Shown here: positions 373-901 of the stretch, piece after piece
Layout of the letters: each line of letters starts with the position of its first letter
Numbering within the stretch: position 1 is the stretch's first letter
Assembly (NCBI GenBank): GCA_900167925.1
Contig: FUZM01000004.1
Coordinates: 243,216 to 307,215 of the forward strand
Length of the DNA: 64,000 nucleotides
Direction of reading: 5' to 3'
Origin: Bacteroidales bacterium WCE2008
GTDB lineage: Bacteria > Bacteroidota > Bacteroidia > Bacteroidales > UBA932
Notes under the pieces: generated by a model
The model's database searches: none
Seen by the model: only the letters and a program-made list of their open reading frames with translations
What the model was told of the DNA's origin: nothing
Position numbers and translations under genes: made by a program

Positions 373-460
373 GACACCGGTGAAAAGCAGAGTGGGATGT
401 CGCTGGCCTTGGTGGCCAGGGGGCCGGGGGCGTGTCCATCCGCAGACACGAGTAGCGGAA

Positions 461-540
461 GGGGCCCGCAAGATACGAGTTCTGCGCAGCAGGACGAAGT
501 AGATTGTGGGAAGGCCGGAGACGCGAAGCGTCGGAGTCCC
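461..540. repeat. Hairpin module, copy 1
   Basis: The module begins at GGGGCCCG (461) and carries a 7-bp stem GTTCTGC (479-485) / GCAGGAC (489-495) with a GCA triloop. Exactly 41 bases after the start of that stem comes a second stem, GACGC (520-524) / GCGTC (528-532), with a GAA triloop. A further stem, CCTGC/GCAGG with a GTCA loop, follows at about 547-560. Copy 2 at 695-770 has the same layout. The strand of any transcript is unknown. Confidence 0.75.
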
Positions 541-694
541 CCGGCTCCCTGCGTCAGCAGGTCAGCGGCGACAGCGACCGAGCAGCTTTTCCGAACCTGA
601 CGGAGGCGGCCCGACAGCCGGACGCAGTGGCGAGAAAGCGGCGGGTGTCCTCTGGTCGCGGCGAGCGTGGCCACCCTCGGCCACGTCAGAGGGA

Positions 695-770
695 GGGGCC
701 CGATGGATACGAGTTCTGCGAAGCAGGACGAAGTAGACATTGGGAGGGATGGAGCCGACGAAGTCGGCGG
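695..770. repeat. Hairpin module, copy 2
   Basis: The order is the same as in copy 1, about 234 bases further on. The 7-bp stem GTTCTGC (713-719) / GCAGGAC (723-729) now has a GAA loop. At the same 41-base offset there is a 6-bp stem GCCGAC (754-759) / GTCGGC (763-768), again with a GAA loop. The second stem has a different sequence from that in copy 1 but pairs equally well, which suggests selection on structure. A 22-base identity that follows each module (606-627 and 811-832) is not at a fixed distance. Confidence 0.75.
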
Positions 771-901
771 AACAGAGCCGAGACCATGAGGATTCCCGCC
801 GCGGACGACAGCGGCCCGACAGCCGGACGCAGCAGATGCAGTAGGACAGCGATGGAAGGTAGCAGCTGTGCACGAGCGATTAAGCCAGGCGGAAAGAGGG
901 A

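Follow-up and report, generated by a model that had tools for sequence, protein, structure and literature searches.

A widespread mobile hairpin with a pseudoknotted core and locus-specific arms in gut and rumen Bacteroidales

Near the start of a 64,000-nucleotide stretch of the genome of Bacteroidales bacterium WCE2008 (contig FUZM01000004.1; this whole stretch is called the window below) lie two similar hairpin modules, and the question is what they are. A preliminary description, made from the letters alone, proposed an undescribed structured RNA or DNA element. We find that both are copies of one mobile hairpin that is widespread among gut and rumen Bacteroidales and has not been described before. 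The proposal is thus borne out, as relatives carry the element, its stems covary and no Rfam family matches it. Outside the scope of that description were the dispersal of the module as an insertion element, its locus-specific arms, the copies inside genes and the evidence leaning to folded DNA. The features of the two copies are listed in Table 1.

Table 1 Coordinates of the two element copies in the window and of the 22-nt identity beside them
Feature	Position	Strand	Remarks
Element copy 1, arms and core	401..567	+	locus L001; covariance-model match 431-540, E 4e-20
Copy 1 left outer arm CGCTGGCCTTGGTGGCCAGGGGGCCGGGGG	401..430	+	pairs with 538-567
Copy 1 hairpin A CGTGTCC-ATCCGC-AGACACG	431..450	+	alignment, covariation; with pseudoknot 431-459
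Copy 1 pseudoknot, 439-443 TCCGC with 455-459 GCGGA	439..459	+	covariation (helix 2, 100% of cells paired)
Copy 1 hairpin B: CCCGCAA/TTGTGGG, internal loops GA-TAC-GA / GAA-GTA-GA, GTTCTGC(GCA)GCAGGAC	465..510	+	fold, covariation
Copy 1 hairpin C GACGC(GAA)GCGTC	520..532	+	
Copy 1 right outer arm	538..567	+	pairs with 401-430
22-nt identity, first copy	606..627	+	satellite repeat outside element
Element copy 2, arms and core	638..802	+	locus L001; covariance-model match 666-776, E about 4e-25 to 5e-25
Copy 2 left outer arm GCGGCGGGTGTCCTCTGGTCGCGGC	638..662	+	pairs with 777-802
Copy 2 hairpin A CGTGGCC-ACCCTC-GGCCACG	666..685	+	alignment, covariation; with pseudoknot 666-693
Copy 2 pseudoknot, 674-678 CCCTC with 689-693 GAGGG	674..693	+	covariation
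Copy 2 hairpin B: CCCGATG/CATTGGG, internal loops as copy 1, GTTCTGC(GAA)GCAGGAC	699..744	+	fold, covariation
Copy 2 hairpin C GCCGAC(GAA)GTCGGC	754..768	+	
Copy 2 right outer arm	777..802	+	pairs with 638-662
22-nt identity, second copy	811..832	+	satellite repeat outside element

Each module is a hairpin of ~165 nt, in which two outer arms enclose a core (60-120 nt in length) containing three hairpins, A to C, of which A is pseudoknotted. The aligned copies share the order left arm, hairpin A, GGGGCCC opening hairpin B, GGGAGGG, hairpin C, and right arm. The loop of hairpin A pairs with a segment just downstream, and hairpin B contains two internal loops (GA/GA and GA/GAA) flanking TAC/GTA. 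The preliminary description had recognized a shared stem, GTTCTGC/GCAGGAC, which is indeed present at 479-495 and 713-729, 234 nt apart, and a second hairpin starting 41 nt after the start of this stem, which we locate at 520 and 754. It had also remarked that the second stem is swapped between the copies while the pairing and the GAA loop are retained; this is correct for hairpin C in both modules and extends to the whole family, in which C(GNA)G accounts for 147 of 203 triloops, each of the four bases being represented at N. One correction concerns the loop of the shared first stem, which reads GCA in copy 1 but GAA in copy 2. The preliminary description had not noticed the outer arms, hairpin A with its pseudoknot, or the lower portion of hairpin B (465-510 and 699-744). 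A 22-base identity, GCGGCCCGACAGCCGGACGCAG, follows both modules as stated, at 606 and 811; however, it is part of a satellite repeat and not of the element proper. The satellite segment 565-625 recurs more than 10 times in the same genome near element copies, in either orientation. Upstream, positions 1-222 of the window hold three 74-nt tandem repeats (two identical, one 61%), each with a hairpin TGCCCCCTCAACA..TGCTGAGGGGGCA, and positions 296-372 hold about three copies of a 22-nt tandem repeat, AGGCGGCGGACTGGAGGAAAAC.

The fold of the core is supported by covariation. In an alignment of 26 sequences, 96.5% of cells in the pseudoknotted hairpin A are paired and two-sided changes occur at 9 of its 12 pairs; the covariation is 0.427, compared with 0.122 after shuffling and at most 0.104 when the pairing is slid. 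The base of hairpin B covaries as well. Independent decay of the stems, which had been named beforehand as an outcome that would refute the proposal, is therefore not what is seen. Fold z-scores are -3.4 for the copy 2 segment and -1.25 for the copy 1 segment. A covariance-model scan of the window returned exactly these two copies, the next best match having an E-value of 0.9. We note that the model was trained on 23 sequences including both window copies, so these E-values are not independent, and the independent proof is the recurrence across the genus. No Rfam family matched at gathering or relaxed thresholds, the best score being 23.7 bits against 48 for Clostridiales-1.

The genome of WCE2008 holds about 30 element copies; a search of it with the region returned 49 matches, full or partial. 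One contig of this genome, C2, carries pieces of the repeat at both ends (44-106 and 533911-533973 of 534243), and assembly breaks therefore fall on the repeat. Related genomes, where the preliminary description had proposed to look, carry the element widely: sixteen relatives of the same genus were also matched in the sequence search, and the covariance model finds it in 104 of 121 genomes of the genus (46 of 53 good genomes), with at least 31 copies in one genome and no match in the remaining 17. Outside the genus it was found in only 3 genomes among ~197 sampled across the order, and inspection of the extra-genus cases (G276, G328, and G178) shows the core together with pairing arms. An exact-pattern scan of 84,980 species genomes matched at least 120 stretches; the matches listed carry the labels Bacteroidales or Bacteroidia, include one Candidatus Coprenecus, and come mostly from the rumen or the gut. 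The plasmid, phage, and viral collections (IMG/VR) gave no match to the element.

Some copies are intergenic and others lie within conserved genes, where they are in frame and occur in both orientations, as established at the level of open reading frames and without proteomics. Among 194 copies, 73 are spanned from end to end by an open reading frame of at least 220 codons, 33 in sense and 40 in antisense, and a few of these frames (such as those at L001, L002, and L017) are probably not genes. NCBIfam names were obtained on both sides of the insert for TrmB, TruA, TruB, RibF, RsmH, MtaB, YggS, YgiQ, DnaX, UvrA, RNase R, ArgD, AroB, and others. In a GH3 enzyme, orthologues read LPL-SSP-RRIF where the carriers have ~50 extra residues, and the subfamily or orientation of the element in this loop varies by species at one site. 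Some copies lie near contig ends, as might be expected of an assembly or binning artefact. However, there are hundreds of copies in independent genomes, in frame in conserved genes and with orthologous flanks in several species, and the probability of such an artefact is practically negligible. A second short repeat, of the TGTCATTCCGAGCGAAGCGAAGGAATC type, is found in loops or intergenic sites where relatives carry the element (L274 and L286 in the TrmB loop, and also L378 and L393), which suggests that permissive sites are shared. At L336, L364, and L365, two elements stand side by side in opposite orientation.

Across 221 copies, the median pairing score of the flanks is 21, compared with 7.5 at control positions, of which 0.97% reach 12. 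The arms are 19-54 nt long, with a mode of 28-29 nt, and they are mostly unrelated from site to site, yet complementary within each copy. At L018 and L019, two loci in one genome, the cores are 97% identical and the arms unrelated. The WCE2008 genome also contains a subfamily whose arms are common to several sites, as part of a larger composite repeat. No conserved terminal sequence was found among 119 non-redundant arms. It is worth noting that the arms were located by their complementarity, which favours pairing.

Orthologous loci were compared in six related genomes (90 copies in 24 locus groups). Between species, 480 arm pairs had changed on both sides and still paired, while 92 had changed on one side only, so that two-sided changes are about five times as frequent. 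The core is inverted relative to its flanks in 11 of the 24 groups and in 23 of 82 pairs, and the flip is seen directly at L350/L362 and L339/L354. Ortholog pairs share history and are not independent, and no species tree stands behind the ratio of 480 to 92; even with this and the complementarity bias, the ratio is hard to obtain by stepwise compensation. The published marks of template switching are homogenisation of arms and inversion of the spacer (PMC8604942, PMC8794818). Concerted change of both arms and inversion of the spacer between them are both met here, and together we take them as the signature of template switching.

These observations bear on the possibility of an ordinary MITE-like or RPE-like palindrome, moved by a transposase acting in trans, with arms that form a stem selected for pairing and maintained by compensatory point mutations. 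The in-frame insertions in both orientations do recall the protein-coding palindromic repeats of Rickettsia, on which there is a review (PMC10969869), and the subfamily with arms common to several sites would fit as well. However, there is no conserved terminal repeat for a DDE transposase, nearly identical cores can have unrelated arms, arm changes are predominantly two-sided, the core flips, and Y1 transposases are rare in the genus and absent from WCE2008 (see below). We therefore consider an ordinary palindrome of this kind unlikely.

Alleles without the core exist and may inform on how the element arrives. At site 1 of the GH3 enzyme there are orthologues without the insert. The cleanest insertion is L368, which is present in G427 only and absent in five relatives, one of them 93% identical. 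Here, an inverted copy of the native left end, TGAAGAAAT, stands on the right, outside a 21-nt inner arm that arrived together with the insert. The inner 21-nt arms themselves are not derived from the flank, and no second copy of them was found in that genome within 3 mismatches; some arm sequence must therefore have an origin other than local copying. At L347, four species have a left arm coding for a conserved LLKALAAEG stretch, and in each of them the right arm is the reverse complement of the left arm of the same species; G164 has only the left stretch. The right arm at L340 is similar to the native flank, and in TrmB of G164 one arm is kept while the core is absent. The TrmB pair of G079 and G164 was considered as an insertion with an inverted flank copy and rejected, as the insert is shared by a more distant relative and a loss in G164 is equally likely. 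More generally, since the insert is found in more distant relatives, the empty alleles of G164 in TrmB, of L347, and of G003 at L348 need not be pre-insertion states and may have arisen by secondary deletion. The intergenic orthologues of L018 within the genus could not be used for empty sites, the nearest species being only 77% identical in the gene. These comparisons support the view that flanking sequence is drawn into the arm; that this happens at the moment of insertion is inferred.

The coreless allele of G003 at the L348 locus (L388) retains a 7-bp palindrome, GGATAGA-G-TCTATCC. If cores inserted into long palindromes that already existed, such as terminators, the arms would belong to the target and would vary by site as they do, and such a residual palindrome might be taken as an example. 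However, most empty alleles have no palindrome (L059-L069, L371-L375, and L389), and perfect palindromes of 30-45 bp would have had to exist beforehand in coding loops. The palindrome of L388 is probably a deletion remnant, as other relatives carry the element there. An origin of the arms from the target is very improbable.

The next issue is whether the element acts as DNA or RNA. The plus strand is more stable than its complement in 174 of 186 copies. On the core plus strand, the mismatches of the 119 non-redundant arms are G.T in 64 cases and A.C in 19, and G.A in 70 cases and C.T in 5, with equal bias in sense and antisense copies. A structured RNA, either cis-regulatory or a small RNA, whose plus-strand transcript folds and acts, would be consistent with such a defined fold strand, with the covarying pseudoknot, and with the conserved U.G and G.U pairs and tandem G.A internal loops. 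These G.U pairs and tandem G.A loops are no less compatible with RNA than with DNA, which counts against the DNA reading. On the other side, antisense copies in genes (40 of the 73) keep the plus-strand bias though the host mRNA is the other strand, the gene context is not constant, many copies lie in coding regions, and no Rfam family matches. The loops are GNA triloops in place of the GNRA tetraloops that are common in RNA, of which there are only about 8. C(GNA)G is the known rule for extra-stable DNA mini-hairpins (PMC4686876). A functional RNA is therefore quite unlikely in our assessment. Because antisense copies put the wrong strand into the host mRNA, a folded single strand of DNA is favoured; the evidence leans this way, and RNA made elsewhere is not excluded. 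No leading- or lagging-strand bias in replication was seen by GC skew.

Taken together, we read the element as a non-autonomous palindromic insertion element that is recognised by its shape and whose arms are rewritten by template switching, a reading that we lean towards without regarding it as settled. One arm would serve as the template for the other during DNA template switching, by which the arms may be both made and kept complementary, and the same switching could flip the core. Flanking host sequence would enter the outer arm and then be copied in reverse on the opposite side. The plus strand presumably acts as folded single-stranded DNA, whose shape may be recognised by an unidentified trans-acting enzyme, or which may be exposed at replication forks. 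Recognition by shape would account for the absence of a conserved terminal sequence. The full version of this scheme, in which an unidentified enzyme recognises the folded single-stranded core by shape alone and inserts it, and host flank is reverse-copied into private, self-templated, continually rewritten arms within which the core flips, remains tentative and may well be wrong. No mobilising enzyme has been identified. The Y1 transposase (PF01797) occurs in 8 of the 121 genus genomes, compared with 104 for the element, and the reverse transcriptase (PF00078) in 32; neither is present in the WCE2008 genome, with its about 30 copies. Movers of the REP/RAYT (Y1) and retro types are thus unsupported, being absent from this genome and not co-distributed with the element.

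Palindromic elements inside bacterial genes and the evolution of hairpins by template switching are known separately, and here they are joined in one abundant element. Because each genome has dozens of copies and orthologous loci are numerous, one can measure directly how long perfect stems originate, how their centres flip, and how far essential enzymes tolerate in-frame inserts. The element also points to an unidentified activity that mobilises it in this large group of gut and rumen bacteria, and gene annotation has to reckon with its in-frame inserts.

Several known systems resemble the element in part. REP/BIME repeats with RAYT (PMC3733652) are likewise small palindromic DNA repeats in many copies with a one-strand hairpin logic, whereas the element has a three-hairpin pseudoknotted core and site-specific arms, and Y1_Tnp is absent from 113 of 121 genomes. 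Integron attC sites are recognised as a folded single DNA strand of variable sequence, as is inferred for the element; they have conserved boxes at the base and a variable loop end, whereas here the core is conserved and the base variable. The d(GCGNAGC) mini-hairpins (PMC4686876) have the same C(GNA)G triloop with N free, but they are a loop motif and not a mobile element. The coding palindromes of Nematomorpha mitochondria (PMC6649704) are also long perfect inverted repeats in functional protein genes; there, each of the two arms codes for conserved protein, and the abstract mentions no dispersed core common to them, unlike the situation here. The tests made place the element outside REP, MITE, and all Rfam families; it is real and, within the reach of Rfam and the open papers searched, previously undescribed. 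The palindromic elements of Rickettsia and Wolbachia are similar in being short palindromic repeats dispersed between genes and in frame in protein genes, apparently in permissive loops. In-frame insertion in conserved protein genes, one mark of RPE-type elements, is met by the element, but another, sequence conservation of the whole palindrome including its ends, is not: only the core with its pseudoknot is conserved, the arms are site-specific, the core flips, and the phylum is different. Template-switch (quasipalindrome) mutation in inverted repeats (PMC8604942, PMC8794818) shares arm homogenisation, multi-base compensatory change, and spacer inversion. The inversions reported in yeast coding sequences change 2-5 bp (PMC8604942), whereas here a core of 60-120 nt flips within arms of 20-45 nt and the inverted repeat is itself the dispersed element. 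The nearest relatives of the element are therefore protein-coding palindromic repeats in lifestyle and template-switched inverted repeats in evolution.
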